Numbered from the stretch's first letter, positions 10-23,700 are shown. The stretch is DNA of 27,008 bases from a virus (IMGVR_UViG_3300025759_000562:1-27008), one strand, 5' to 3'. The notes: a model not told the origin generated them from the sequence alone. A program made the numbers and translations.

Positions 10-24
10 AAACCAATAAAAATG
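10..24 (+). repeat. Diverged copy (R0) of the 18-bp start-site repeat
   Basis: AAACCAATAAAAATG shares the AAACCAATA half of the repeat found further right, but the GAGAG half is replaced by A's. Its ATG (22-24) is followed at once by TAA, so the real start of the next gene is the ATG at 32. The 15 bases CACAATAAACCAATA (4-18) also occur just after the tRNA at 447-461, so both the upstream context and the element core are shared. Confidence 0.6.
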
Positions 25-374: not shown

Positions 375-448
375 GCACCTATAGCTCAGATGGTTAGAGC
401 AAACCGCTCATAACGGTTAGGTCGTAGGTTCAAGCCCTACTGGGTGCA
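375..448 (+). tRNA. tRNA with CAT anticodon (Ile2-type or elongator Met)
   Basis: A full cloverleaf can be folded. The acceptor stem is GCACCTA (375-381) with TGGGTGC (441-447), with one G-T pair. The D stem is GCTC/GAGC, the anticodon stem AACCG (402-406)/CGGTT (414-418), the loop CTCATAA with anticodon CAT at 409-411, and the T arm GTAGG-TTCAAGC-CCTAC. The discriminator is A448 and the CCA end is not encoded (ACAAT follows). G1-C72 excludes a normal initiator, which has a C1-A72 mismatch. C4-G69 and C5-G68 match the determinants known for tilS-modified tRNA-Ile2 (lysidine), which reads AUA, so Ile2 is somewhat favoured over elongator Met. Confidence 0.9.
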
Positions 449-452
449 CAAT

Positions 453-470
453 AAACCAATAGAGAGATGA
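453..470 (+). repeat. 18-bp start-site repeat, copy R1
   Basis: Exact AAACCAATAGAGAGATGA five bases after the tRNA. Its ATG (467-469) starts the 44-residue gene. Confidence 0.9.
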
Positions 471-601
471 AGCCTAGAAAATGTCCTCCTTCCTTAGAAG
501 ATAAAATAGCAGCACTCAACAAGTCTACGCCAGAGTGGATCGACCAACTTGTAACAACACAAATGGATCGTTTGGATGCTGAATTTGAATCATCCAAATA
601 A
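467..601 (+). CDS. Small hypothetical protein (44 aa)
   Basis: A 44-residue ORF starting at the ATG inside repeat R1, reading MKPRKCPPSLEDKIAALNKS at its start and ending ...DAEFESSK. It stops with a TAA (599-601) that overlaps the first bases of repeat R2. The product is charged, soluble-looking and has no family I recognise. A possible amphipathic helix runs from about residue 10 to 42. The gene is credible because it exactly fills the space between two repeat copies and starts at the same point in the repeat as its neighbours. Function unknown. Confidence 0.65.
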   Translation: MKPRKCPPSLEDKIAALNKSTPEWIDQLVTTQMDRLDAEFESSK

Positions 602-617
602 ACCAATAGAGAGATGA
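600..617 (+). repeat. 18-bp start-site repeat, copy R2
   Basis: Exact copy. Its ATG (614-616) opens only a six-codon frame, MRQWKW followed by TAA (614-634). The longer gene starts at the ATG eight bases further on (622), so this copy differs in use from the others. Confidence 0.85.
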
Positions 618-621
618 GACA

Positions 622-789
622 ATGGAAATGGTAAACGAAATACTACAATGGATTGCCATCATATGGGCAGGATGGGCAATCAATAAATTAGCAACTGCAA
701 TAGAAATATATGAAGAAGCTTTGAAAGATACGTGCAAACTGATTGCTCACAAATGGGAATACGAAAGACGTAAACGAGAAAACCAATAG
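622..789 (+). CDS. Small membrane-segment protein (55 aa)
   Basis: A 55-residue ORF from ATG 622 that begins MEMVNEILQWIAIIWAGWAI. Residues about 7-29 form a hydrophobic, tryptophan-containing segment likely to be one membrane helix. A charged tail with EEALKDTC and ends in KRENQ follows. The final N and Q codons and the TAG stop (787-789) come from repeat R3, read in its AAC-CAA-TAG frame. The start is uncertain. The repeat ATG at 614 is out of frame and gives only MRQWKW, and ATG 622 and 628 are both possible. No family is recognised. Small single-helix proteins of this type in phage accessory regions can be lysis, exclusion or membrane-sensing proteins, but nothing here decides it. Confidence 0.6.
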   Translation: MEMVNEILQWIAIIWAGWAINKLATAIEIYEEALKDTCKLIAHKWEYERRKRENQ

Positions 790-797
790 AGAGATGA
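780..797 (+). repeat. 18-bp start-site repeat, copy R3
   Basis: Exact copy. It gives the upstream gene its -NQ-stop ending and starts the 101-residue gene at ATG 794. Confidence 0.9.
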
Positions 798-1099
798 AAG
801 AAAGAGTAACACCAAAAGAAATTATAGAACTGGTACGTAGATTGCCAGACGCAGAAAGCCACATACACGAATGGGAAGGCAAACAATGCATAACACAAGA
901 ATGGTTGTGCGGGAACTTTGCAGGACGTTCGTTTGAAGCTCTCAAATTAGAAGATGCAGCTCAGGAAATGATTGAATACCTATACGAACATATAGGACAC
1001 GAAAGTATGGTTGGGAGAAGTGTAACCGATAGTGGCTTCCCTGACTTGCAAAGAGTTTATGAATACTGTAAACCTGAACCTGTTGAGGTAGAGGTGTAG
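794..1099 (+). CDS. Hypothetical accessory protein (101 aa)
   Basis: A 101-residue acidic protein starting at the ATG inside R3 (MKERVTPKEIIELVRRLP) and ending in PEPVEVEV. The open frame extends upstream to 743, but those codons lie over the 622-789 gene and read the repeat as TNREM, so the repeat ATG is the better start. Features seen are a conserved-looking HIHEWEGKQCITQEWLCG stretch near residues 23-40 and a helical middle. There are no metal-binding clusters, signal peptide or membrane helix. It stops with TAG 22 bases before the next repeat, unlike its neighbours, whose stops lie in or at the repeat. Function unknown. Confidence 0.75.
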   Translation: MKERVTPKEIIELVRRLPDAESHIHEWEGKQCITQEWLCGNFAGRSFEALKLEDAAQEMIEYLYEHIGHESMVGRSVTDSGFPDLQRVYEYCKPEPVEVEV

Positions 1100-1121
1100 C
1101 TATTACACACAACAACTTATA

Positions 1122-1139
1122 AAACCAATAGAGAGATGA
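1122..1139 (+). repeat. 18-bp start-site repeat, copy R4
   Basis: Exact copy, preceded by a 22-base spacer after the previous stop. It starts the 72-residue gene at ATG 1136. Confidence 0.9.
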
Positions 1140-1354
1140 AGAAGTATAGAATCATTGAGCGCACAAACAGTTATAGCCAAAAGTGGTATTGCGTGCAGAA
1201 AAAATCAATCTTCGGCTGGTGGTACAATGATGCCAATGTACTTGCTACATCTCATACGGGTTGGTATTCCTCCCTGCACGAAGCCGAATTTATATTTAGA
1301 GCAAAAACAACGCCTGTGAAAACCAGAGTCGTTAAGACAACAGAAAACCAATAG
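1136..1354 (+). CDS. Small aromatic-rich protein (72 aa)
   Basis: A 72-residue basic protein rich in Tyr and Trp, starting MKKYRIIERTNSYSQKWYCV. The pattern of a KYRI-x-E strand, a WYCVQKK strand, GWWY, and a YSSLHEAEFIF helix resembles small beta-alpha proteins seen in many phages, but I cannot name a family. The last residues are ENQ, with the stop TAG (1352-1354) supplied by repeat R5 in its AAC-CAA-TAG frame. The gene therefore fits exactly between R4 and R5. Function unknown. Confidence 0.75.
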   Translation: MKKYRIIERTNSYSQKWYCVQKKSIFGWWYNDANVLATSHTGWYSSLHEAEFIFRAKTTPVKTRVVKTTENQ

Positions 1355-1362
1355 AGAGATGA
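1345..1362 (+). repeat. 18-bp start-site repeat, copy R5
   Basis: Exact copy. It supplies the -NQ-stop end of the 1136 gene and the ATG of the 1359 gene. Confidence 0.9.
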
Positions 1363-1745
1363 CGAAAGTAGAACGCACGCAGTTGGCTTTGCTCGAACGC
1401 ATACGTCAGCTTGAAGTAGAAATCATAAGCAGGGGACTTCTTCCTATTGGCTACGTGCAGGAAATGGAAGAAGAGATGCAGGCCAAAATAAACCCCCAAA
1501 CCAATAGAGAGATGAAAACACCGATGCAAGAAGTATTTGATCACTTAAGAGCATCAAAAGAGACTGATAGTTTTGGGGAGGTCTATTGTGTAGATTGGTT
1601 ACTTGAGAATGAAAAGTCATTTCTTGAGAAAGAGAAAGATTCGATGTGTCAGTTTCAATCTGATGGTCAGAGAACAGACTTTTGGGTAAAGTATGAAGAC
1701 AGCGAAGACTGCTTTAACAAAACCTTTAAACCAATAGAGAGATGA
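1359..1745 (+). CDS. Read-through fusion of two repeat-bounded small genes (128 aa)
   Basis: From the R5 ATG, the frame encodes a 51-residue coiled-coil-like module (MTKVERTQLALLERIRQLEV at the start). It then runs straight through repeat R6, which in this phase has no stop and is translated as TNREM, into the next 77-residue module. The product would be 128 residues. Either this is a true fused protein, or the first module has lost its stop and the second is also made from the R6 ATG at 1512. The frame ends with KPIER-TGA, where the TGA (1743-1745) overlaps the next ATG. Neither module matches a family I know. Confidence 0.55.
   Translation: MTKVERTQLALLERIRQLEVEIISRGLLPIGYVQEMEEEMQAKINPQTNREMKTPMQEVFDHLRASKETDSFGEVYCVDWLLENEKSFLEKEKDSMCQFQSDGQRTDFWVKYEDSEDCFNKTFKPIER
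1498..1515 (+). repeat. 18-bp start-site repeat, copy R6 (read through in frame)
   Basis: Exact copy, entered in the one phase without a stop, so the upstream frame continues. Its own ATG is at 1512. Confidence 0.9.
1512..1745 (+). CDS. Hypothetical accessory protein from the internal repeat start (77 aa)
   Basis: Starting at the R6 ATG, this 77-residue acidic protein begins MKTPMQEVFDHLRASKETDS and has EVYCVDWLLENEKSFLEKEK in its centre. By analogy with the other repeats, this is the expected start, nested in frame within the longer 1359-1745 reading frame. The last five residues, KPIER, and the overlapping TGA/ATG junction come from repeat R7. No family is recognised. It may be made alone, as the C-terminal part of the fusion, or both. 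Confidence 0.6.
   Translation: MKTPMQEVFDHLRASKETDSFGEVYCVDWLLENEKSFLEKEKDSMCQFQSDGQRTDFWVKYEDSEDCFNKTFKPIER
1728..1745 (+). repeat. 18-bp start-site repeat, copy R7
   Basis: Exact copy. The upstream frame reads AAA-CCA-ATA-GAG-AGA-TGA (KPIER-stop), overlapping the ATG at 1742 (ATGA junction). Confidence 0.9.
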
Positions 1746-1954
1746 ACGCAGAAGATTTTATTAAGCAGCTAATTGAAAAGTACGACAATCCATCCTTTGA
1801 TGCAGAAGAAGAATGGTGGGATTGGGGAAATGTAAGTGATGCACACCATCACGGAGTTGAGCAAGGTACGCAGTACATCATAGACCAGTTAAAAACCTTT
1901 TTCAAACCAATAGAGAGATGGAAACAATCAAACAAAAAAGAAGAGAGGTGCTAG
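1742..1954 (+). CDS. Small acidic protein with a stop-loss tail (70 aa)
   Basis: A 70-residue protein starting MNAEDFIKQLIEKYDNPS, with an EEEWWDWGNVSDAHHHG motif near residues 22-38 and a helical C-terminus. It enters repeat R8 in the KPIER frame, but R8 ends in G instead of A, so the expected TGA becomes TGG (Trp). Translation continues for nine residues (WKQSNKKEERC) to a TAG at 1952-1954, giving a 37-base overlap with the next gene. The basic tail is therefore an accident of one base change rather than a conserved end, which is my inference. Function unknown. Confidence 0.7.
   Translation: MNAEDFIKQLIEKYDNPSFDAEEEWWDWGNVSDAHHHGVEQGTQYIIDQLKTFFKPIERWKQSNKKEERC
1904..1921 (+). repeat. 18-bp start-site repeat, copy R8 (last base A to G)
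   Basis: AAACCAATAGAGAGATGG, 17 of 18 bases. The change removes the TGA stop for the upstream frame but keeps the ATG (1918) of the downstream gene. Confidence 0.9.
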
Positions 1955-2298
1955 ACATTGTTGCTAAGCACTTTAATAGTAAGAACAGAAGCGTCCAAAT
2001 GTGTGGCTCGGAATGCCTCTATCTATCTGACGATGGGTCAAAGTGTGCGGTTGGGATGTTTATCAAAGATGAATACATCAATGATGATCGTTGGCTAGAT
2101 ACTCACAATGGAGAAGATGCTTACTACCTTCTTGAAAATACTGATGAGATTCTTGTTGAAGAATACCGTGGGCTAGGGGCAGAGTTCTGGACTAGCGTAC
2201 AGCGTCTCCATGATGAGGCAGTCCATTGGGACAAAAAAGGGCTAACCACTGAAGGGAAGGCTATGGTAGCTGAAATTAAAGAAGAGTTTGCCCTATGA
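1918..2298 (+). CDS. Conserved-looking phage hypothetical protein (126 aa)
   Basis: A 126-residue acidic protein starting METIKQKRREVLDIVAKHFN at the ATG of R8. It has a helical start, then a CLYLSDDGSKCAVGMFI segment (about residues 34-50), and a long C-terminal helical part. This layout, with an amphipathic helix leading to a G-x-KCA-x-G-x-x-I segment, recurs in many small hypothetical proteins of tailed phages, but I know no function or family name. Its TGA overlaps the next ATG (ATGA, 2295-2298), which suggests translational coupling. It is the last gene introduced by the 18-bp repeat. Confidence 0.8.
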   Translation: METIKQKRREVLDIVAKHFNSKNRSVQMCGSECLYLSDDGSKCAVGMFIKDEYINDDRWLDTHNGEDAYYLLENTDEILVEEYRGLGAEFWTSVQRLHDEAVHWDKKGLTTEGKAMVAEIKEEFAL

Positions 2299-2474
2299 TT
2301 GACCCAATGTGTTTTACTGAAGAGCAGGTACACATAGTATCTGATATTCAAAAGAAGTCCTTCGAGAACGGATTAGTATGGGGTGTAGTTTACACCCTTT
2401 GTGGTTTCTTGGGGATAGGTTTAGCAATGATGATTGCCACTAAGTGGGGACATCTAATATTTCAATTATGGTAA
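2295..2474 (+). CDS. Small single-helix membrane protein (59 aa)
   Basis: A 59-residue ORF overlapping the previous stop (ATGA) and ending at TAA 2472-2474 over the start of the next gene. A soluble N-terminal part (MIDPMCFTEEQVHIVSDIQK) is followed by one hydrophobic stretch at about residues 27-49 (GLVWGVVYTLCGFLGIGLAM in its core), consistent with a single membrane helix, then a short aromatic tail. Unlike its left neighbours it has no 18-bp repeat. Its fit between overlapping stops and starts supports it as real. Function unknown. Confidence 0.65.
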   Translation: MIDPMCFTEEQVHIVSDIQKKSFENGLVWGVVYTLCGFLGIGLAMMIATKWGHLIFQLW

Positions 2475-2665
2475 AATGGATTAAGCAGTGGTGGGCCTGC
2501 GCCTCCCGCAAAGATGAGCATGTGTATGTAGTGATGCAGATTGAAGACAGGGTAGAGGTGCCCATCGTAGTGACGTACTCACTAGACGATGCAGTAGAAT
2601 TAGTAGATAGTCTAAGCGCTAAAAGAGGGAAGGCAGCATGGTTCCGGAGAGTAAAATTAGTGTAG
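2468..2665 (+). CDS. Small basic hypothetical protein (65 aa)
   Basis: A 65-residue protein starting MVKWIKQWWACASRKDEHVY. The frame is open eight codons further up to a GTG at 2444, but ATG 2468 overlaps the stop of the previous gene in the way typical of this operon and is preferred. Two beta-like stretches (VYVVMQIEDR, VPIVVTYSL) and a DDAVELVDSL helix suggest a small alpha/beta fold. No family is recognised. It ends just inside the start of the DnaA-like gene, at the head of the replication operon. Confidence 0.65.
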   Translation: MVKWIKQWWACASRKDEHVYVVMQIEDRVEVPIVVTYSLDDAVELVDSLSAKRGKAAWFRRVKLV

Positions 2666-3069
2666 CTCCGCACATCTATGTAGGTCTGCAAAAGACTGCT
2701 AAGAACAGAGTATCTAAGCGGTACCATGTTATGTATGGGATGACCTACAAACGTATACTCGCATTGACCTCTGAGGCATTTGGGGTATCACTTGTAGAAG
2801 CTATGAGCAGATCTCGTATACACGAAGCAGTGTGTGCTAGACGAGCTTACATAGCTATATCCAGATATCATCTAGGTAGTAGCTACAACACTATCGGGAT
2901 GCTTATCGAGAGAGATCACTCTACGGTACTGCACAGCTTGCGGAGGCATGACGACTGGATGCAGGTCTACCCAGAGTATGCGGGAATATATAAGAGTATC
3001 GAGGAAGAGATAAAGTTTAAACCGCAGTTAGATGGGGAGGAAGACGAACCTGTTGGAGATCAAGTCTAA
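2638..3069 (+). CDS. Stand-alone DnaA domain-IV-like DNA-binding protein
   Basis: A 143-residue protein. Residues about 39-106 match the layout of the DnaA C-terminal DNA-binding domain: a lead helix (ILALTSEAFGVS), an SRSR turn, the basic ARRAYIAISRYHLG helix (68-80), then SSYNTIGMLIERDHSTVLHS (81-100). The last stretch is the helix-turn-helix with the DHSTV version of the DHTTV box-recognition signature. There is no AAA+ domain, so it cannot act as a complete initiator. It likely binds DnaA-box-like sites or recruits host machinery. The acidic tail is shared with the start of the helicase gene, which overlaps by 38 bases. Origin binding is inference. Confidence 0.8.
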   Translation: MVPESKISVAPHIYVGLQKTAKNRVSKRYHVMYGMTYKRILALTSEAFGVSLVEAMSRSRIHEAVCARRAYIAISRYHLGSSYNTIGMLIERDHSTVLHSLRRHDDWMQVYPEYAGIYKSIEEEIKFKPQLDGEEDEPVGDQV

Positions 3070-4210
3070 AGAACAGAAGAAAGCATTGAACCAGTGGGCC
3101 GCACAAGGTTTTACTGGTTCAATCATAGCTGGTACTGGATTCGGGAAGAGCCGATGTGGTGTACTAGCTGTTGCTCATGTGATTAAGACTTACGGGGGCA
3201 AGGGATTAATCCTTGTCCCTACTACCCAACTTCAAGATCAATTCAAAGAAGAGTTCAAGAAGTGGGGTAAGGAAGATGTACTAGATAGCATTGAGATTAT
3301 ATGCTATCAGTCAGCGCACAAGCTACGAGGAGAGGAATACTCCATAGTAGTTTGTGATGAGGTTCACCTTGGGCTGAGTCCTGTGTATAGACAGTTCTTT
3401 GAGTACAATGCGTACGAAAGGCTGCTCTGTATGACAGCTACTCTCCCAGAAGAAGATGAGTACCGCTCACTCTTGGTGAACCTTGCACCTATTTGTTACC
3501 TAATATCACTAGACGTCTGTGTACAGATGGGGTTGGTGGCTCCGTACGAAATCAATTGTGTCCCGGTCAAGTTACTGGATGACGAAGCAAAAGCGTACAA
3601 GAAAGCAAACAACAAATTCGTACACGCTAAGTATCGACTTGGTCAGTTTGATGCATTCAACATGGCTAAGATGGTACTGAGCGGGAAGGTTCCTGGTGAT
3701 AAGGCAGCTGCTGTTATGTTCTACGCCGCTATTAGAGAGCGTAAGGAGATAGTTCAGCATGCCTACAATAAACTAGATTACACAGACAGAATTGCTGCTG
3801 AGTATGAGGATAAAAAGATCCTCGTATTCTCTGGTACTAATTCGTTTACAGATGATATGGCCGAGCACCTTGACGGGTTGGCATACCATAGTGGTAAGAC
3901 GAAGAAGGTTAGAGAAAAGATACTCGAGCAGTACAAGTCTGGGGAGAACAAGATTCTTTGTTCAACCAAAGCTTTGAATCAAGGCTTCGATGTACCCGAC
4001 TCAGAGGTTGGGATCATTGCAGGTCTAGATTCTAAATCACTACCCATGATTCAGCGTGTGGGTAGACTACTTCGACTCGCAGAGGATAAGGTCGGTAAGA
4101 TCTTTATACTGTACGTAGCAGAGTCTCAGGAGGAGAAGTGGTTACGAAACGCTGTAAGCAAATTAAGTAATGTTAACTGGTTAAATTCAATTGACGATGT
4201 CACGTATTAA
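3032..4210 (+). CDS. SF2 DNA helicase (UvsW/XPB-like)
   Basis: A 392-residue superfamily 2 helicase with both RecA-like domains. Motif I is AGTGFGKS (residues 33-40), motif II is DEVH (109-112), motif III is TAT (135-137), and motif VI is QRVGRLLR (341-348), preceded by the STKALNQGFDVP segment (311-322). Proteins of this type remodel branched DNA during recombination-dependent replication and repair, as T4 UvsW does. The length is compact, with no obvious extra DNA-binding domain. It overlaps the DnaA-like gene upstream and the Myb-like gene downstream, so it is likely co-translated with them. The helicase assignment is firm and the UvsW-like role is inferred from context. Confidence 0.92.
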   Translation: MGRKTNLLEIKSKEQKKALNQWAAQGFTGSIIAGTGFGKSRCGVLAVAHVIKTYGGKGLILVPTTQLQDQFKEEFKKWGKEDVLDSIEIICYQSAHKLRGEEYSIVVCDEVHLGLSPVYRQFFEYNAYERLLCMTATLPEEDEYRSLLVNLAPICYLISLDVCVQMGLVAPYEINCVPVKLLDDEAKAYKKANNKFVHAKYRLGQFDAFNMAKMVLSGKVPGDKAAAVMFYAAIRERKEIVQHAYNKLDYTDRIAAEYEDKKILVFSGTNSFTDDMAEHLDGLAYHSGKTKKVREKILEQYKSGENKILCSTKALNQGFDVPDSEVGIIAGLDSKSLPMIQRVGRLLRLAEDKVGKIFILYVAESQEEKWLRNAVSKLSNVNWLNSIDDVTY

Positions 4211-4511
4211 AACAAAAAGAACTCGCTATACTGCTGATGATGACACTTACATTCTCGGATGTGTAGAACGACTCGGAGTATCTCGTGGTGCGCACAAAGC
4301 TGCAGTTATTCTTGGGAGAACTCACAATGGGATAGTACAACGCTACTACAATATCCTGCGAGGTAAGAAACGTATGACTGTTACTGGTCCTGCGACTATC
4401 GAAGTGAACCCCCCAACACCCGTAAAGCCTACGGAGACAGGGGATGTAACTGATGTGAAGTCAGTGAAGTTTTCGGTGAAAGGTGTAGAGGTCTACATGG
4501 TATTTAAATAA
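4197..4511 (+). CDS. Myb/SANT-like helix-turn-helix protein (104 aa)
   Basis: A 104-residue protein. Its first half (RYTADDDTYILGCVERLG then KAAVILGRTHNGIVQRYYNI, about residues 10-53) follows the Myb/SANT pattern: an acidic start, three helices, LGRT before the recognition helix and a basic end. The second half is a Pro/Thr linker (NPPTPVKPTETG) and a short beta-like tail. It is probably a small DNA-binding regulator or architectural protein. The start is ATG 4197, which overlaps the helicase stop. The TTG at 4191 is possible but weaker. The match is by pattern only. Confidence 0.65.
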   Translation: MSRIKTKRTRYTADDDTYILGCVERLGVSRGAHKAAVILGRTHNGIVQRYYNILRGKKRMTVTGPATIEVNPPTPVKPTETGDVTDVKSVKFSVKGVEVYMVFK

Positions 4512-4529
4512 ACCGTTTAAATCTTCGAT

Positions 4530-5069
4530 ATGAATGTAGAAATCAACACTGAAAGTCTTGCAAATCTTTGTATTACCGCGGACGAGTATCTATATTTGTA
4601 TCTGCTGCATCAAAAAGCCTACGATATTCTATCGACTTTGAGCCTCACTGTAGACTCAGAGAAACTGCAAACCAAAGGCTATTTGAAATTGGGTCAAGAG
4701 ACCTCAGAACATACTGTAAGAGAGCCATTCTACTCCCACCTAGAGTCCCCCTTCTTACAAATGTGGTCTGAACTCTTGGCCCATTTTCCTCTAAAGGTGG
4801 GTGCTAGGGTTCTTAGAGCTAAGAATCCTATGGCCAAGGCTAACGAGAAAGCACGCATCAGATACGAGAAGTATCTGGGTGGGAACGTTGGGAAACACAA
4901 AGAGGTTATCAAAGCTCTGGATGTAGAGTTGGATATGCGTAGAGGAGATGACTCCCTCAAGTTTATGCAACAACTAACCACATGGGTGAACAATCACTCG
5001 TGGGAAAAATACATTGGACTAGACGATGAACCGACCAGTACCCCCTCCAGAATTACCAGAAGGCTCTAG
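4530..5069 (+). CDS. Possible helicase loader / replisome organizer (179 aa)
   Basis: A 179-residue protein ending in a segment reading FMQQLTTWVNNHSWEKYIG (residues 145-163). This resembles the final TWLN-x-x-x-WE motif common in phage replisome-organizer and DnaD-like proteins. The N-terminus (ITADEYLYLYLLHQKAYDIL) looks like a winged-helix lead. The basic middle, around AKANEKARIRYEKY, may bind DNA. It overlaps the DnaB-type helicase gene by 44 bases, where a helicase-loading partner would be expected. The role is inferred from the motif and position. I do not know a named family for the whole protein. Confidence 0.55.
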   Translation: MNVEINTESLANLCITADEYLYLYLLHQKAYDILSTLSLTVDSEKLQTKGYLKLGQETSEHTVREPFYSHLESPFLQMWSELLAHFPLKVGARVLRAKNPMAKANEKARIRYEKYLGGNVGKHKEVIKALDVELDMRRGDDSLKFMQQLTTWVNNHSWEKYIGLDDEPTSTPSRITRRL

Positions 5070-5982
5070 CCTACCCCAGCTTAGACATATCTCCAAAGAA
5101 GTAGAGCGTTCTATCCAACACGTACGTGATGGTATGAACGGTAACAGAAACGTACTGCCTACTAAATGGGAGAGATTGAATAAGAACCTCATGGGCGGCT
5201 TACAGCCCGGTAAGATGTATGTCATTGCCGGTAGACCTGGGGTTGGGAAGTCTGCATTCAGTAACCAGTTGATCTTCGATCTGCTAGACAAGAATGCTCA
5301 GAAAGATATAGTAGTCGTATACTGGAGCTTTGAGATGCCCGGTGACCAGCAGATATTACGTGCTGGCTCTAAGGACACCAAGCTACAGACCTTCGAGCTA
5401 CTATCAGTTGAGCAGAAACTATCTCAGGAGAAGTTTGATAGTTACGTGAATGAGACACAGAAGTACAAGGGCTACCCCATCTATTTCTGTTCTATCCCCC
5501 AAGACATGACAGCGGTCAAGAAAGTGAATGAAGCGATCTTCAGGAAGAGTCCTAGGAAGACGATCATCAACTTGATTGACCACTCTCGTCTTGTTATTGG
5601 GAGAGAGGATACAGAACTGCAGAAGCTAAACACCCTGTCCAAAGGGTGTATGTGGATGCAGTCAAAGATGGGGAGTGTTACAATACTTCTGTCCCAACTC
5701 AACAGGAATATCGAGCAAGAGCACAGAGCAAAGAATCAATACCAACCTCTCCTCACGGATTTGTTTGGGGGCGATTCTATTGGTCAAGATGCTCATGTTG
5801 TGATGATGCTCCAACGACCGTACGATCTGTACAACATTACAGATACATACTGTGGTGAAGACCCAGTAGGGTTGTTGGCTGTGCATGTAGAAAAGAATCG
5901 GGATGGATTGCTAGGCATGATCCCGTTTCAAACAGATTTATCAACGTTTACTATTAATGAACGCAAACTTGGAACTACCTAA
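5026..5982 (+). CDS. dnaB: DnaB-type replicative helicase (C-terminal core only)
   Basis: A 318-residue RecA-fold helicase of the DnaB family. Walker A is GRPGVGKS (residues 69-76), a SFEMPGDQQ segment follows as in the DnaB SLEM motif, then the NLIDHSRLV Walker B region, LLSQLNRNIE, GGDSIGQDA and the EKNRDG loop near the end. Full-length bacterial DnaB is about 470 residues. The N-terminal primase-binding domain is missing here, as in several phage helicases, and only about 45 residues precede the core. It would be the replication-fork unwinding motor, working with the primase-like and loader-like proteins encoded nearby. It overlaps genes on both sides. Confidence 0.9.
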   Translation: MNRPVPPPELPEGSSLPQLRHISKEVERSIQHVRDGMNGNRNVLPTKWERLNKNLMGGLQPGKMYVIAGRPGVGKSAFSNQLIFDLLDKNAQKDIVVVYWSFEMPGDQQILRAGSKDTKLQTFELLSVEQKLSQEKFDSYVNETQKYKGYPIYFCSIPQDMTAVKKVNEAIFRKSPRKTIINLIDHSRLVIGREDTELQKLNTLSKGCMWMQSKMGSVTILLSQLNRNIEQEHRAKNQYQPLLTDLFGGDSIGQDAHVVMMLQRPYDLYNITDTYCGEDPVGLLAVHVEKNRDGLLGMIPFQTDLSTFTINERKLGTT

Positions 5983-6667
5983 GAAGAAGGTGAAAGCCCT
6001 TCGAAAGTCTCCCAAGAACATGGTCTTGTATGGACCACCTAAGATTGGTAAGACAACAGCACTCTCTTCATTGGAGGACTGTTTGATTCTCGATCTAGAG
6101 GACGGTACTGACATGGTTGAAGCGCTTAAGATTAAAGCGCACAACCTAACTGAGCTGTCTCAGATCGGGCAATCTATTATCAAGGAGGGTAGACCGTACA
6201 AGTATGTAGCAGTAGACACAATTACTCAGCTGGAAATTTGGTGTGAGTCAGAGGCTAAGGTACTCTACAGAAACACACCAATGGGTAAGAACTTTGACAG
6301 AGACAACAAAGGTCTGTCTGTTCTTTCTTTGCCTAATGGCGCTGGGTATTTGTATTTGCGTATGGCGTACAAGAAGTGGTTGGACAGGTTGAGTAAACTT
6401 GCCGACCATGTGATTCTGGTTGGTCACCTCAAAGACAAGGTGATCGAGAAGAAAGGTAAAGAGGTAACCTCTAAGGACCTCGACCTGACTGGTAAGATCA
6501 GAGGTATCACATGCGCTAATGCCGATGCTATTGGGTATGTCTTCCGTGAGGGGGACAAGACCATGATCAGCTTTGATGCTGGTCAAGACGTAAATGCTGG
6601 TTCTCGATGTGATCACCTGAAAGGGAAGGTCATGGAACTAGATTGGACAAACATTTTTATTGATTAA
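5957..6667 (+). CDS. Sak4-like RecA-fold ATPase (AAA_24 phage nucleotide-binding protein)
   Basis: A 236-residue ATPase. Walker A is GPPKIGKT (residues 26-33), an acidic LILDLEDGTD strand follows, and the hydrophobic strand YVAVDTITQLE serves as Walker B. Later come ILVGHLKDK and a GKIRGITCANADAIGYVF segment. This order is that of the phage AAA ATPases called Sak4 or 'phage nucleotide-binding protein', a minimal RecA-core family that anneals or pairs single-stranded DNA with a partner SSB. It follows the DnaB gene with a 26-base overlap and lies two genes before a possible ssDNA-binding protein, which fits a Sak4/SSB pair. Family confidence is good and the biochemical role is inferred. Confidence 0.82.
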   Translation: MNANLELPKKKVKALRKSPKNMVLYGPPKIGKTTALSSLEDCLILDLEDGTDMVEALKIKAHNLTELSQIGQSIIKEGRPYKYVAVDTITQLEIWCESEAKVLYRNTPMGKNFDRDNKGLSVLSLPNGAGYLYLRMAYKKWLDRLSKLADHVILVGHLKDKVIEKKGKEVTSKDLDLTGKIRGITCANADAIGYVFREGDKTMISFDAGQDVNAGSRCDHLKGKVMELDWTNIFID

Positions 6668-16198: not shown

Positions 16199-16213
16199 TC
16201 CCCTCTCTTTTTT
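16185..16213 (+). terminator. Intrinsic terminator between convergent operons
   Basis: AGAGAGGGG (16185-16193) pairs with CCCCTCTCT (16200-16208), nine perfect pairs around the loop AATAAT, followed by a T run (16208-16213). The loop holds the TAA stop (16196-16198) of the DUF1599 gene. The T run is on the plus strand only, so leftward transcription meets the stem without a U tail. The minus-strand giant gene ends at 16212, within this structure. Confidence 0.92.
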
Positions 16214-19200
16214 ATTGCGTGAGGTCAAACCACTTGATGGCTTCCTCAGCATTTTTGTTCAATCCACTCCATAGTGGGATCGCTCGATCAAACTTCTTCC
16301 ACAACTTCCTATCTCCTTTGTTGTATCTCCCAACCTTACGGGAGTAGAAGATGTCCTTCTCCAATCCTTCAGCTCCCCCAAGTGCATACGGGATCTCTCT
16401 AAACATTATGTGACTAGTTAGGTCTACGATGTTGGCTAGAGGGCGTACTGCTGCTGTAGGAGATTTTGCCGTGTTTATAATTTCTTCCGATCTAAACTGT
16501 TTTAGCTCTGTATTCAGCCTCCTGAATTGATAGGCCCAGAACATATAAGTAGCTGCATCATCCTCATCGTCAGCCTCAGCTGCCATTCCTTGTAGGAGAT
16601 TGTATAGCATGAAGGCCATAGCCCCAAACGCTAGCTCCAAAGTTGTTCTTGTAACATTTGCTTTCTCATTCTTAGAGAGCATATTCCACACCCCTGGTTG
16701 TCCGTTTACTAGGCCCTTAGCTTGGTCACGTATGTAGTTCAGAAAGCTGATATACATACCCTGACTAGCTTGACCGGTCTCTGTATCTACGTGTAAATAC
16801 CCCATGTCTCCTAGCCCTCCGTGACCAAAGCGTCTTCTAAACGACGGTAGGAGGTACTTACGGAAGATCATCACTGCTTTACCAATTGCTCTTCTTTCGG
16901 CCATAGACCTGTCGAACTGTCCTTTGAGCTGGTTGGTTTTCTTCTGCAGTCCAGACAACGTATTCCTAAAGTCCATAATGCTGAAGTTGGCTACTTTAGG
17001 GTCTACGCTGTACATCCCATTCTCATCTCTCACCATTACATCCCACAAGTTAGCTGGGTCTCCCTTCGCATTGGTGATTACATTCCCATCCTTGTCTTTT
17101 AACTGTCCTTTATAGGAATCCATCAAGGACAGCATTCTTACTAGTGCTGTCTGAAACTCTGCTGCGTTCTGATACGCAAATGCACTATCTGCTGAGAACA
17201 GTTTCTTAGCTCTATTCCCGCTTACGTCTGTCCCAAACCTATCTGTAAAGTCAGAGAACGCATCGAACAGCTCAGCGCACTGCATCATCTTGTTGTCTGC
17301 TGCGAAAGCCTTGATGTCTTTTAGTGCACCGTCTTTTAGGGTCAGCAGCTGTCCTGCTAGTGTTTTGTTAGCCCATGCTAGATTCCTCTTTCCGTAGAAC
17401 TCCCCAGCAATTGCCTCTTCTAGAAGTCTCTCGTTATCAATCATTGCCTGGTTAACACCTTGCAGTTTGTTAGCCGCTAGAGAAGTGATTGATGTGAGTA
17501 GAGATACTGTACGAGCTACTTTGGTGCCAGAGATATCTAAGTTGAACTCCTTCCCACCTATAGTGAATGACCTCTTGAGGTTGTTCTTGAGGTCAACCTC
17601 TCCGTAGAATACAGAGTCAATGAACTCGTTCAGGTGTCGTAGGTGATTATCCGGGTTGGTGAATCTGTCTTGTTTTACAACACGATCCCTCATACCTCTA
17701 AGTCGTTGAGCTGCTTGGTTTACCCCAGGTATCCCAGAAGCATTCTGCTCTATAGTACCTCGCTGCTCAATGATGGTACGCATAGACTCTACAGATGCTA
17801 GTATCCTAGACTTCTGCTCAAACATGTTAGACATGTGGTCGAATCTAAGGATGCTCCCTATGGCGTCTCTACTTATGTCCTTCTGATCCACAGGGTTTGT
17901 AAAGAATACTGGGACAGTTTGTAGCCTCTCCCCATTCAGCCCAACTAGAACCCCATACTCTGTATCAGTTTCTAGTATCTGGAAGCTATCCTGTAGCATA
18001 TCCTTGCCTGCACTCCGTACCCCATTCTCGATACTCTTATCTAGAGCAGACTTTCTAATAGTTGGGAGGGCATACGAGAAGCTATCCCAATTGTTTTTTA
18101 CTTGGTTTGTTTTCCCAAGTCGGCTCTGAGACTTCTTATACTGGGTGAGCATAGCCTCATAGTAGCGGTACTCCACAGAGTTCTTGTTCTTTACAAGAGC
18201 ATCGTACTTAGGGTTGCGATACTTCTGCGGGCTTGGTTGAGCTAGTTTCCCTTTGAACGCTCTACGCTTTTTATCGTAGACGCTGTTAATTTCTTTCTGT
18301 ACCTCAGACGCTTGTGCCTCTAGTATACCTACTAGATCTACATTATCAGCCGCTGCTGCTGCAGCCTTGTCTTTGTTCAGAGTTGCTAGCTTATTAGTCA
18401 ATGCGGCTAACTGCTGCTGAGCATCGGCCACAGGAACACTGTTCTCTTGGTACCACTTGTTCATCTCTTGGTAGTACATCTTTGCAGCACCTGTAGATTG
18501 CCAAGCTTTTAGATCCTCCTGAGATTCTGGGCGTTTGTGCTTCTTAGCCAGGTTAGAGATCATATCAAACTCTGCCTCGTAGTACTTACCTGCGTTTACA
18601 GGTTGTACAAAGCTGAGCACGTTGATCTTTTTCTTTTTGATCTTCCCGTTCTGGGATGCCTCCCAATCAGTTACATAGTATGAGTGCTCCTCTAGGATAG
18701 GTTCATTAAACTTTGCATCGTTTACCCCTGCCCCTCTTGTAGCTGCATACTCTCTGTAAATGTCTTTGAGACTGTACTTAGTCTTTCTTGACTCCTCTGC
18801 TGCCTTGTAGATAGAGTTCTTTATGTGCGTAGCAAAGAGCTGTAGACCTGCCTGTGATGAGTAGATCATAGGGTCCATCATGTAAGACAGGTAGCCTTTA
18901 TTCTTCTGCGCCTCTCTGAGCTCTGTGATTAGGGTCTCTCTACCAATCTTTCTAGACTGTAGCTGTTCGATATTCAAATCGACTACCATATCCTTAAACT
19001 CATCCCCAGTAATCTCTCCTGACCTTTTCAGCTTTTGCAGCTCTCGGTATTTCTTGGTGTTGCGGTTAAGCCCCACCAACCTTTTGTTTTCTCGAACACC
19101 AGCAATTACCTCATCAAGCTGATTATTGACCTCGGGCCTGTGGTACTCTAGCAGAAGGTCTGCCTGCATAGGTATAATGTTATCCAAGAACCTAGTCTGC

Positions 19201-20726
19201 AATCGTTTCATACGACGCATAGCAGTAGTAAGCCTATTCACATAAGCATCTAGCTCTGCTTGATTACCACCATTGTTGGGTAGACGTCTGTCTTCTAGTA
19301 GTTCTAGCAGCCCATCCATAGCAGAGTACTCACCGGAGTGGAAACCAGAGATCATCTCGCTGATGTTCTGGATATCCCCCATCATCTTTAGACGCTCATC
19401 CTCAGAGACGTCTTCGCTGTAGTTGTTCTCTACATGCTCCATAGTAGCTTCTGCTGTAGCTACATATCTAGTGATGTAGTTCACAAAGGAGATCAGGTCT
19501 TGAACACTTTCTACTTTCTCCAATCGCTCTCTTTGCAGCTTAAGATCAGCAAGTGTCTGTGCGTTAGGATTTGGGGAGCTCTCTAGTTTAGTGATTGCTG
19601 TCTGGATCTTGATTCTTAGATCCCCTACAACCTGCTCTACTCTTCTCTCAGCTTTACTTCTTTGTACGTATGGGGCTAGTGCTCCTCTAAACTGCTCTGT
19701 CTGCATTTTACCTGCAAACATTTCTCTAGCTAGATTAGCTGCTGAGTCTTGTGATACCCCAAAGAGTCTACCAATAGCACGGTAGATTCTGTTCAGTAGC
19801 TGCTGTAGTTTACTTGGGTTTTTCTTTTCAAGTCTAGCACCCTCCAAACCAATAGCTGTAGCTAGTACTTCTTTGTCTAGCTGCTCTTGATTTAGCTCTG
19901 GGTATCTAGCTGCTACCTCTTCGTATAGAGTGCTGTCACGCAGCTCCTCTACAGCTTTCTGTACTAGAGGGTTGTTGTACCCCAGCAAGTCAATGTACAA
20001 GTGCCCAAACTCGTGGTAGGCTACATCTCCTTGCATGAGATCAGGATTGATTCGCACAGTGGGGGTTCCATCCTCCATAGCGATCTGACCTTGTGAGGTA
20101 ATAGTAGGATCTAGTACAACTTTGACCTCTACCCCTGCAGCTTTAAATGCTTTCTGTAGCTTGACTAGTTGGTTCTCAATGCTCCTAAGACCCCTATCTC
20201 CTCTCTCTAGCTTAGTGTCTTCCTCTATCTCTTGCTTTTCTCGCAGCTCTCTGATTCTACGGTACTGCTCAGCGAACGGGGACCCAGGTCGAGATAGCGC
20301 TTCTGCTACTCTATCTGCTACCATCTTGTTCTCTGCTATGACCTGAGGAGCTATCCTCTTCATTTTAGACAGAGTGCTCTCACTGACTTCGATCTTGTAC
20401 AGTTTGTCTGGGTTGTAGTTCATAGCCGCATCTGCGTTTATGACTTTGACCAAATCTTCTGCTACCTGAAACTGATCTTTTGCTAGGGTGTTCAGGTTAC
20501 TGATGTGTGCAAGATTGTCTTTGGATGTGGGGGACTTCGATACGTAGGTAGTGACCTTGGTGGTGTCGTTTATATCTGCTCTACGAAATACAACACCCCC
20601 ATTCTCCAAACGAGATACTACCTCTTCAGTAGTTCTCTTAGAGGACGCAGTGTCTGCTACGTAGTTTAGTACGGAGTTGTGAGTAGGATCACTCTTGCCG
20701 TTGATATAGTATTCACATGCTGCCAT
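16212..20726 (-). CDS. Giant virion-associated protein with zincin domain (1504 aa)
   Basis: A 1,504-residue protein. Residues 238-242 are HEFGH inside AYHEFGHLYIDLL, with a Glu at 286 in KEVLATAIGLEG, a likely third zinc ligand. This is the pattern of the zincin metallopeptidase domains found in large phage 'polyvalent' proteins. Long helical, charged regions follow. Near the C-terminus lies a hydrophobic segment (LELAFGAMAFMLYNLLQGMA) likely to enter a membrane, then a basic tail. Its ATG overlaps the stop of the RNA-polymerase-like gene (TAATG), so the two are probably made together and may be packaged and injected together. Both the peptidase activity and the injection are inference. Confidence 0.75.
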   Translation of the reverse strand: MAACEYYINGKSDPTHNSVLNYVADTASSKRTTEEVVSRLENGGVVFRRADINDTTKVTTYVSKSPTSKDNLAHISNLNTLAKDQFQVAEDLVKVINADAAMNYNPDKLYKIEVSESTLSKMKRIAPQVIAENKMVADRVAEALSRPGSPFAEQYRRIRELREKQEIEEDTKLERGDRGLRSIENQLVKLQKAFKAAGVEVKVVLDPTITSQGQIAMEDGTPTVRINPDLMQGDVAYHEFGHLYIDLLGYNNPLVQKAVEELRDSTLYEEVAARYPELNQEQLDKEVLATAIGLEGARLEKKNPSKLQQLLNRIYRAIGRLFGVSQDSAANLAREMFAGKMQTEQFRGALAPYVQRSKAERRVEQVVGDLRIKIQTAITKLESSPNPNAQTLADLKLQRERLEKVESVQDLISFVNYITRYVATAEATMEHVENNYSEDVSEDERLKMMGDIQNISEMISGFHSGEYSAMDGLLELLEDRRLPNNGGNQAELDAYVNRLTTAMRRMKRLQTRFLDNIIPMQADLLLEYHRPEVNNQLDEVIAGVRENKRLVGLNRNTKKYRELQKLKRSGEITGDEFKDMVVDLNIEQLQSRKIGRETLITELREAQKNKGYLSYMMDPMIYSSQAGLQLFATHIKNSIYKAAEESRKTKYSLKDIYREYAATRGAGVNDAKFNEPILEEHSYYVTDWEASQNGKIKKKKINVLSFVQPVNAGKYYEAEFDMISNLAKKHKRPESQEDLKAWQSTGAAKMYYQEMNKWYQENSVPVADAQQQLAALTNKLATLNKDKAAAAAADNVDLVGILEAQASEVQKEINSVYDKKRRAFKGKLAQPSPQKYRNPKYDALVKNKNSVEYRYYEAMLTQYKKSQSRLGKTNQVKNNWDSFSYALPTIRKSALDKSIENGVRSAGKDMLQDSFQILETDTEYGVLVGLNGERLQTVPVFFTNPVDQKDISRDAIGSILRFDHMSNMFEQKSRILASVESMRTIIEQRGTIEQNASGIPGVNQAAQRLRGMRDRVVKQDRFTNPDNHLRHLNEFIDSVFYGEVDLKNNLKRSFTIGGKEFNLDISGTKVARTVSLLTSITSLAANKLQGVNQAMIDNERLLEEAIAGEFYGKRNLAWANKTLAGQLLTLKDGALKDIKAFAADNKMMQCAELFDAFSDFTDRFGTDVSGNRAKKLFSADSAFAYQNAAEFQTALVRMLSLMDSYKGQLKDKDGNVITNAKGDPANLWDVMVRDENGMYSVDPKVANFSIMDFRNTLSGLQKKTNQLKGQFDRSMAERRAIGKAVMIFRKYLLPSFRRRFGHGGLGDMGYLHVDTETGQASQGMYISFLNYIRDQAKGLVNGQPGVWNMLSKNEKANVTRTTLELAFGAMAFMLYNLLQGMAAEADDEDDAATYMFWAYQFRRLNTELKQFRSEEIINTAKSPTAAVRPLANIVDLTSHIMFREIPYALGGAEGLEKDIFYSRKVGRYNKGDRKLWKKFDRAIPLWSGLNKNAEEAIKWFDLTQ

Positions 20727-23700
20727 TACTTACAAATTACATCTGTTCTATCCTGCCCAGTCACTCTTTGTCTGAGTGGGGCTAGAGTTTTTCTAGGGGC
20801 TTGTTTTTGCACACCCATTACTTCGCTCACGCTAACTACGGAGTCAGTGTTGACTCTGTCTGTACCGGTTGGGGTTTGTACCCGCTGTACTTTAGTTATC
20901 TCAGACTCTACACCTACGTCGTAGCTCTCCATGATTCTACCCCCAAGAGGATTTAGTTTATAGTATACACCGTCATTCCCCAATCTGTACACTGCCCTCT
21001 CCTCAGTCGCAGTGTTTGCAAACACCCTATATAGGGGGAGCTCAGATATCTTGCCCTTTACCCTCATCGCTCTTAGCAGTGGGGCTTTCATTTTTCTTAC
21101 AGGGATTATTGGGGAACCTCCTGCATATCTAGTACCATGCTGTCTGAGATAGTCTCCCATAAATGCCCCAAAGTAGTTTAAGTCTTCCAGGTTCTGCTCT
21201 TTGTAGAACTCGGAAACAGATTTTGGGAAACGCTCCCCTTGCTGCATCCCTTCTTGCCCATATCTACTATGTCTTGTTTCTAGGAAGAACTCGACTGGTA
21301 TCATGTCTGCGTAAGAGTTGTTGGATACTCTGAACCCATTTACAATAAGAGCGTTTGCGAAGAGATCTTCTACTAGGTTTTGAATCTCTCTGACAGAGTC
21401 TCTGTCACCAGGATTCTCAGCGTACTCTTCTGGGAACTCCATGAGGCGTCTAGCATCTTGGATGATGGAGTCTTTTTCAAATTTACTCATCTTCTGAGAG
21501 GTATCAAACTCCAGTAGCGAGATCCGCTCTGTGCTGTTGTCTTTGTTCTCGGTGAACTTAGCAATGAACTTGTTCTCTTTTAGCTTTGGGTTCTTCGTAG
21601 TAATAGCCCCAAACTGAGTAACTAGATTATCTTGTTTGTTGAGGTATCTAGTTTCTAGGTGGGTACGGCTAAAGAACTCTCTCATCGGGGAACCTGGCCT
21701 AGTTACTACGTGTAGCATTGCTGCTCTACGAAGTTCTTTGAGCTCTTCTGGCCTGACTTGGTCTTTACCCAAAGCCTCCATGTACTGTATCTCCAACTCG
21801 CGCATTGCAGGTGAGAATACCTTAGGCATCAGCTTAGCCCCAAGATCATTGGAGATGGAGTTAAACAGAGCGTTGAATCCCCCAGACATACCGAACGGAC
21901 CATCCTTCTCGAGGAACTGTTCTACTGGGCTAGTGTCTTGGGGTCTGCCGTAGTAGATGCTCTCCCCTCTCATACGAGTATCTGCACTGAATTTGTTTCT
22001 GCGAGACTCGTAGGACTTGAGACTATCTGCACTGTTCATCCCATCCATAGAGTCAGGGGCTATTACCTTGAACATTCTTTGAAGCTCTTGTCCTGCATTT
22101 AGGAACTTCATAAAGTTCGCAGCTGCGACTCTGGGGCTTACACTCCCATTCAAAATAGCTTCTGAGGACATATCAACTGTGCCCTCATCTAATCCGTCTA
22201 GCTTATCCCCTAGTACTTCTTCGAATGCTTTTTTGAATTGGTATACGTTGCCCCCATACTTGCTAAGTACCAAGTCAGTAGCTTCCCTAATAGTGGGGTG
22301 GTTCAAGTAGTAGTGTAGAAGTCTTGTATCCCCAACGTGTGTAATCCAATACAGCTCTACTGGGAGGGTAGCCACATTATCGTTCAAGGTAAACTGATAG
22401 GGCTTATTACCCGCATCTACTGCCGCTGATAGGTACCTAGATATCACCATGTTGATTGGGGTACCAGCATCCTCTCCAGCTGTTTCAGGAGCATATGTTT
22501 GCAGCTTGGTGAATCTCTCCCCATCTATACTGATAGCAGCAGACTCTAATACATTTACAGATCCGTGCTGAGCCACAGAGTGACCTGCTAGAGCGTTAGC
22601 CCACAATCCACGTAGTGCTACCCCCAAAGTATTTCTGATACCTGAGTTGATCTCCCCCATGTAGTCATTGAAGTTTATGGTAGAGTCAAGCCCAAGGCTA
22701 GCTTCTAGTTCTGCTACTATTGATTCCAGAGTAGTTTCATCTAGCGGAGCCAACGTTTCGTTGAAGTGCTGAGGGCTAGATTGTACAGCCTCTATTGTAT
22801 CGTAGATAATATTGTTCAGGATGCTCTCATCCATCCTCTTCATGCTGGTCTCCCCATTAACTAGTGCCTTGTACGGGGGCCTTACTTTGGTTAAGCCTGC
22901 GTCTGTCTTCCGCATCTCTGGGAAGATTAGAATCATCTTGTCGATGTCAAAGTCAGATCCAGTCAGCGTAGTGATTTGACCAGGTACGATAATAGCTTTT
23001 GCGTAGTTGTCTGGGAGTATCTTCTTTACTCTCATCAGTATGGTTGAAGACTTACCTTGGTTTGGGATACGATACCCAATCATCCTACCCTGCTCTGGGG
23101 TTAGTTCTTGCCCCTCTTCAATACCTAGCTTTCTAGCAATATCTGCTCGTACTGCTACCTCCATATGGGACAGTCTAGGACGACCTTTTGAGTCTCGGTC
23201 TGCGGTGTAGAACTCTAGCTCATTTGATTCACCGTATCCCCCAAGGTCAGCTACCTGTACAGCTTCCTGACCAGAGATCTTTTGCTTGAACGCACGGTTA
23301 ACAGCCATACCTAGGACGATGCGCTCTATTTTCTCAAAGTATACTGGGAAGTCCAGAGATAATTCAAATCCAGGTCTACCTGCTGCGTCCTCTATAATCT
23401 GTAGACCTCTGTTATAGTTGTCTGGGAGGTCTCTCTCCATGTTCTCTTCAGTGATAATACGTCGGAGATTTTGGTGGATGTTTTGAAGAGCTTCTTTTCT
23501 AGCCTCTGGGGTCTTAGCTGCGTCTAGTTTTGATATCCCGATCTCATTGTAGAGTCGAGCCATGTCTAGATCAATCTTACGATTGATTGCATCGTGGTAC
23601 AGTTTCTTTAGATCTTCCCCACTAACCTCTTGCTCTTGTGCTGTACCCCCGTCTATTACATACATTGCGTCATCCTTGATATTCGCAAGGGTGTTCTTAC

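Follow-up and report, generated by a model that had tools for sequence, protein, structure and literature searches.

A repeat at the starts of small genes

The window (the whole stretch of viral DNA that was analysed, 27,008 nt) begins with an array of small genes. The array is headed by a tRNA-Met gene. Downstream of the array lie the core gene F2, which starts at 2295, a DnaA-C-terminal-like gene and a replication module that encodes helicases and a Sak4-like annealing protein (Table 1). The 18-mer AAACCAATAGAGAGATGA, hereafter the joint, occurs in the array eight times between positions 453 and 1921, seven times exactly and once with a 17/18 match, always on the + strand. Shuffling gave a chance expectation of 0.02 ± 0.14 copies against the eight observed, and no further copy was found anywhere else in the 27 kb of the window. 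An earlier reading of the same DNA, made from the sequence only, had reported these copies within 1.5 kb, each except R2 ending in the start codon of a small gene, and had placed upstream stops at 789 and 1354 (TAG) and at 1745 (TGA). The copy number and the stop positions were confirmed, and seven of the eight joint ATGs open ORFs of 44–128 aa.

Table 1. Coordinates of the joints and neighbouring features (positions refer to the window unless a contig is named).
Feature	Position	Strand	Description
Half joint AAACCAATA	10..18	+	Follows TGACACAAT; next ATG (22) immediately hits TAA
Operator-like module	325-374; L088 3552; L093 4348; L013 6114
tRNA-Met (CAT)	375..449	+	Array head; ARAGORN
Joint R1	453..470	+	Preceded by the tRNA-Met gene; ATG opens a 44-aa ORF, 467-601
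Joint R2	600..617	+	Own ATG gives 6 codons; 55-aa gene from 622
Joint R3	780..797	+	TAG 787-789 closes the 622 gene; ATG opens a 101-aa ORF, 794-1099
Joint R4	1122..1139	+	Upstream gene stops 22 nt before; ATG opens a 72-aa ORF, 1136-1354
Joint R5	1345..1362	+	TAG 1352-1354 closes the 1136 gene; ATG starts F32, the exchanged cassette (MTKVERTQLAL...)
Cassette F32	1359..1497	+	97% DNA identity with L014, 91% with L011; unrelated flanks
Joint R6	1498..1515	+	Read-through phase; ATG also opens a 77-aa ORF, 1512-1745
Joint R7	1728..1745	+	ATGA overlap, TGA 1743-1745 closes the 1512 gene; ATG opens a 70-aa ORF, 1742-1954
Joint R8	1904..1921	+	17/18 copy, ends in ATGG; ATG opens a 126-aa ORF, 1918-2298
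Core gene F2	2295..2474	+	First common gene 3' of the arrays; without a joint in the window
Sak4-like ssDNA annealing protein	5957..6667	+	Candidate recombination function; PHROG 124, E 6.6e-29
AAACCCCTGAGTCATGA joints	L013/L082: 179, 354, about 498, 908; also L015		At small-gene starts

R2 is the exception. Its ATG reads MRQWKW-stop, and the longer ORF begins 8 nt downstream, at 622. This ORF lies in another frame than the joint ATG, as after a small indel or behind a six-codon leader. R6 stands in the phase that reads through, so that F32 and the next gene are fused in frame as a 128-aa ORF (1359-1745). The homologue of R6 in contig L014 has C6 where the window has C5, and this L014 joint ends in TAG. 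At R8 the variant ATGG holds no TGA, and the 1742 gene therefore continues to 1954. The half joint at the left end of the window, together with TGACACAAT, is similar to the 3' end of a tRNA plus joint in L079. tRNAs also precede the first joint in L079, L088, L089, L093, L095 and L013. F2 carries a joint in L009/L010/L019 and a degenerate one in L089.

Distribution in other viruses and hosts

The 17-mer AAACCAATAGAGAGATG was present in 11 of 2.9 million viral contigs, again at the starts of small genes. Near matches included, L014 holds seven copies (five exact), L011 four, L012 and L018 three each, and L009/L010/L019 and L016 two. The joint-bearing contigs form at least three groups with few genes in common outside the joint region. 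The window itself is the first group. In the second group, the primase-helicase is 35% identical to that of Maribacter phage Panino; in the L014/L018 group, the terminase is 40% identical to that of Phocaeicola phages. All nearest hosts belong to the Bacteroidota, and from this a host in the same phylum was assumed for the window as well.

The whole window gave no megablast match among annotated phage records, and a 30-nt probe containing the joint gave only weak matches there (E about 2 or more). In 84,980 prokaryote genomes the 18-mer was found as six single copies. This is about the estimated chance level, which indicates that the 18-mer is no host motif. L013/L015 and L017 each hold one uncertain copy. 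The copy of L013/L015 looks real because it stands directly after a tRNA, and that of L017 may be a chance match. The additional single-copy contigs retrieved with the relaxed pattern AAACCAATAGAGANATG look like chance matches and were set aside.

Relatives of the window helicase (L021–L040; helicase, 54–63%) lack both the joint and the cassettes, and relatives of the second group, or lineage B (exonuclease, 60–65%), lack the joint; all compared loci are metagenomic fragments. We looked for a relative that keeps gene content and gene order but lacks the repeat, and found none. Copies scattered away from start codons were not seen either. Where gene order could be compared between relatives, the cassettes between identical repeats differed.

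Tandem gene duplication with divergence, or an assembly artefact, could leave similar 5' ends and so place a repeat ahead of each gene. The 29 repeat-led ORFs, however, show no mutual homology, except between the F31 and F32 copies of different contigs and within the window's nested fused pair; the proteins led by the repeats of one array are thus non-homologous, and tandem duplication was rejected on this ground. The same joint and cassettes also occur in contigs named after different metagenome datasets. We consider an origin of this kind negligible in probability.

Termination of the upstream gene

Across the contigs, 35 joints were tabulated, and all but R2 open ORFs of at least 33 aa. An upstream stop codon lies inside 21 of the 35: TAG in 14, the TGA of ATGA in five, and TAA formed with a preceding T in two. 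R2 belongs to the last kind, its first two A's completing a TAA at 599-601. In the TAG phase the joint reads AAC-CAA-TAG, which gives the upstream protein the ending -NQ or one close to it. In the third phase there is no stop and the genes are fused, as at R6 (1498). The punctuation had been described as phase-independent, which is an overstatement: besides the fusions in the third phase, TAG accounts for 14 of 21 stops, against seven under equal phases (P = 0.002 for 14 or more). In other genes TAG is the stop in 11 of 91, and none of these 91 ends in -NQ. The TAG is unchanged in all degenerate joint copies; these copies are few, and its conservation there is suggestive only.

Some crAss-like phages reassign TAG. 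Such recoding was rejected for the window: six large genes have no in-frame TAG and, together with the 11/91 TAG endings, this indicates that TAG is a stop here.

Translation start without a Shine-Dalgarno sequence

The sequence-only reading had pointed out that GAGAG abuts the ATG, with no Shine-Dalgarno spacing. A Shine-Dalgarno sequence is indeed lacking, but this is ordinary for Bacteroidota, whose ribosomes work without Shine-Dalgarno pairing (PMC6847099, PMC9976891). In Flavobacterium johnsoniae, initiation is favoured by A at -3, -6, -12 and -13 and by low structure (PMC6847099). In the joint, A stands at -14 to -12 and at -6, and position -3 is a purine, G, rather than the preferred A; in an E. 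coli reporter the change from A to G at -3 costs only about 10%. The unpaired fraction at joint starts was 0.69 versus 0.52 at the other starts of the same phages (P = 1.5e-8). With its A positions, its purine at -3 and its low structure, the joint thus resembles a Shine-Dalgarno-independent start of Bacteroidota.

In the TAG phase, the distance from stop to start is 4 nt (TAG-AGAG-ATG). Reinitiation drops steeply with distance, with a cost of 5–70% for +2 nt (PMC10666635). Coupling by termination-reinitiation is plausible because the TAG phase sets stop and start only 4 nt apart. Judged from these features, translation probably initiates at the joint ATGs, partly by termination-reinitiation.

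A site for a regulator ahead of co-regulated genes, whether an operator, an early promoter or the target of an mRNA-binding protein, including an RNA-binding translational regulator, would also account for strong conservation, many copies and a place 5' of accessory genes. Some arrays are indeed preceded by an inverted repeat, CTTTACACRT, that resembles an operator and is distinct from the joint. The joint, however, is non-palindromic, keeps a single orientation and is base-exact next to the ATG. It also lies inside the upstream coding sequence and recurs in tandem in one apparent operon, and the 18-mer has an RNA fold of 0 kcal/mol. A regulator site is therefore an improbable reading in our opinion, though an RNA-binding translational regulator may act at the joint.

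L089 (4530-4565) and L095 (885-920) have a strong hairpin that resembles a terminator, includes a T run and stops some 5 nt short of the joint. With this hairpin directly upstream of the joint, the promoter of the genes that follow in both contigs is uncertain.

Cassette exchange at the joints

F32, a cassette of 49 codons (window 1359), recurs in the window, L011 and L014, and its neighbours on both sides are different in each. Between the window and L014, 133 of 137 DNA positions are identical, and the 100-nt flanks agree at 27 of 100. The homology is bounded by the two flanking repeats, and the same is true for L011. In the pair L011/L012, the homology of F31 terminates at the right-hand joint; L012 begins at the left edge. 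L089 and L095 have a common leader and joint. In L089 the joint is followed directly by the ATG of F2; in L095 a whole additional gene (c14) stands exactly between the two. F2, F11 and F33 were each found both with and without a joint. The data show that cassettes were exchanged between unrelated phage lineages with edges at joints. A modular joint at which small genes are gained, lost and shuffled had been proposed for the window, and the movement of F32 between unrelated phages supports this.

The cassettes are real genes, since dN is well below dS in most cassette pairs (0.10/0.79 for c27 and 0.07/0.68 for c14). They are under purifying selection. For the F32 pair of the window and L014, dS = 0, which indicates a recent transfer.

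A total of 83 homology edges was collected over 11 contigs; they are not independent, as the contigs share ancestry. Of these edges, 29 lie within 3 nt of a joint, and 2000 random placements gave a mean of 6.3 and a maximum of 17. With a margin of 6 nt, a joint was present in both partners at 12 of the 83 breakpoints and in one partner at 19, while 20 fell on a start codon that has no joint and the other 32 elsewhere. These classes indicate that start codons are the general boundary and that recombination from repeat to repeat can explain only a part of the exchanges. The earlier claim of recombination between identical repeats could thus account for the 12 two-sided edges and does not extend to the 19 one-sided edges or the 20 at repeat-free starts.

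The one-sided and repeat-free edges could also mean that the repeat is a selected translation signal and nothing else. Illegitimate crossovers would then fall anywhere, selection would keep those at gene borders, and the repeat would mark them passively. Two further points agree with this: the repeat is shorter than published pairing lengths (PMC3945230), and it fits the determinants of the start region (PMC6847099). Such a signal would, however, leave unexplained why 17 of 17 bases are identical across unrelated phages whose ordinary starts are dissimilar, and the 12 breakpoints with a joint in both partners speak against it. The exact identity across lineages with unrelated genes indicates that the joint sequence itself has moved. 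Overall, a purely passive marker is rather unlikely.

Single-gene cassettes between identical sites, arranged head to tail in variable arrays, also recall integrons, that is, site-specific recombination sites served by a dedicated recombinase. The joint has neither symmetry nor structure as such a site, let alone a structured attC, and some exchanges involve a repeat in one partner only. Tyrosine or serine recombinases (Pfam PF00589, PF00239) gave no match in 13 partial contigs, elsewhere in whose genomes such a gene may lie. We regard an integron-like system as very improbable.

Comparison with known systems

By form, the closest systems are the start-associated sequences (SAS and ESAS) of cluster K mycobacteriophages and similar motifs in Microbacterium phages of cluster EF (PMC3203893, PMC7302621). 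Like SAS, the joint is a short asymmetric repeat in many copies and a single orientation at the starts of non-structural genes, more conserved than a normal ribosome binding site and sometimes with the upstream stop inside. The sequence-only reading had stated that SAS are not reported to supply stops, which was wrong: the cluster K paper marks upstream stops within SAS (PMC3203893, Fig. 14 legend). The SAS is a 13-mer, GGGATAGGAGCCC, with the Shine-Dalgarno core AGGAG 3–7 bp from the start; most copies stand in gaps longer than 50 bp, and 17-bp inverted repeats occur upstream of roughly half of them (ESAS) (PMC3203893). AAACCAATAGAGAGATGA has no AGGAG core, and no conserved inverted repeat was found directly upstream of the joints. 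Unlike SAS, the joint is free of a Shine-Dalgarno sequence, includes the ATG and is often the entire gap, the upstream stop being contained in 21/35 joints rather than lying beyond a large gap; moreover, cassette exchange is seen at it. A further likeness is to termination-reinitiation at ATGA overlaps, with which the joint has in common the ATGA and a very short stop-to-start spacing (+4 nt) (PMC6728339, PMC10666635). Unlike the general ATGA coupling of neighbouring genes, the joint packages this coupling in a mobile repeated sequence.

By role, the closest systems are the PeSLs and the ninR borders. The PeSLs of T4-like phages, which Arbiol 2010 and Comeau 2014 are said to have described, are reportedly short repeats at gene borders where small accessory genes are shuffled as modules; they are said to lie in intergenic gaps and to contain a stem-loop terminator as well as an early promoter. 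Both papers are cited in PMC4503421. The analogy is functional only: both elements stand at the borders of shuffled genes, but the joint has no stem-loop, is read as promoter-free and would act, if at all, in translation. The ninR region of lambdoid phages is said, in the work attributed to Kroger & Hobom 1982 and Clark 2001, to be a chain of small genes with overlapping stops and starts, whose conserved borders are thought to guide mosaic exchange; these borders reportedly contain Shine-Dalgarno sites and belong to one phage family. The joint differs in being nearly invariant over 17–18 bp, free of a Shine-Dalgarno sequence and common to unrelated lineages. It functions like SAS and the PeSL elements of T4 and belongs to neither. 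What is new is a variant of start-associated repeat with direct evidence of exchange at the repeat across unrelated phages.

Proposed mechanism and significance

We think it quite probable, from the sequence comparisons above, that the 17–18-mer is a compact translation-restart joint and at the same time an exchange boundary for accessory-gene cassettes in Bacteroidota phages. Bases 1-14 would form a complete, unstructured start region free of a Shine-Dalgarno sequence, with the ATG following as bases 15-17. This sequence also closes the upstream gene, either by TAG 4 nt before the ATG or by ATGA if the next base is A. If an ORF carries a half joint at each end, its gain, loss or exchange would therefore preserve both termination and the restart of the next gene.

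As to movement, short homology at the joint together with annealing recombinases of the phages may promote crossovers. Candidate recombination genes are encoded, namely the Sak4-like protein in the window and a RecE-like exonuclease in the second group. Minimal efficient pairing takes 23–27 bp for Red-beta and 31–34 bp for RecA (PMC3945230), more than the 17–18 bp of the joint. Because the repeat is below these lengths, we infer that annealing at the joint is infrequent and that selection keeps the junctions which work; the joint is not claimed to be an active recombination site. More tentatively, and at somewhat less than an even chance, the joint may be a shared exchange standard that has spread horizontally through unrelated Bacteroidota phages and permits gene trading without a dedicated recombinase. 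If this is true, single accessory genes could be traded across lineages and function in any order.

Phage genomes are mosaic, built of small genes whose function is obscure, and how a gene is inserted without breaking an operon is rarely visible. At the joint the boundary is base-exact and the same in unrelated phages, and it would account for termination, restart and exchange together. The joint could serve as a short tag for finding exchangeable accessory genes in marine phage data. It also allows termination-reinitiation to be tested directly in bacteria with ribosomes that disregard Shine-Dalgarno sequences.

A second joint and further observations

Another stop/start joint, AAACCCCTGAGTCATGA, which is unrelated to the first, occurs in L013/L015. 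Two of its copies are exact and others are variants, and the genes upstream of it end in -TPES-TGA. One gene there is distantly related to the gene that starts at 1918 in the window. In the viral collection, no further contig with multiple copies of AAACCCCTGAGTCATGA was found. This second sequence suggests that the first joint may be one of a class.

The operator-like module consists of the CTTTACACRT inverted repeat followed by AAATCAGNAAAATCTTTACACAT, and is common to the window and L088/L093. It stands before the tRNA-Met gene in the window and abuts a degenerate joint in L088/L093. L013 has a single half-site of the module adjoining its joint.

On the - strand of the window there are two giant ORFs of 1504 aa (16212-20726) and 2089 aa (20726-26995), which have no significant Pfam or PHROG matches. 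Their layout is reminiscent of crAss-like phages. L020 is 99.3% identical to window positions 2231-6400, and the differences are concentrated in the DnaA-like gene (94% aa identity). This pattern suggests a recent local exchange in the DnaA-like gene.
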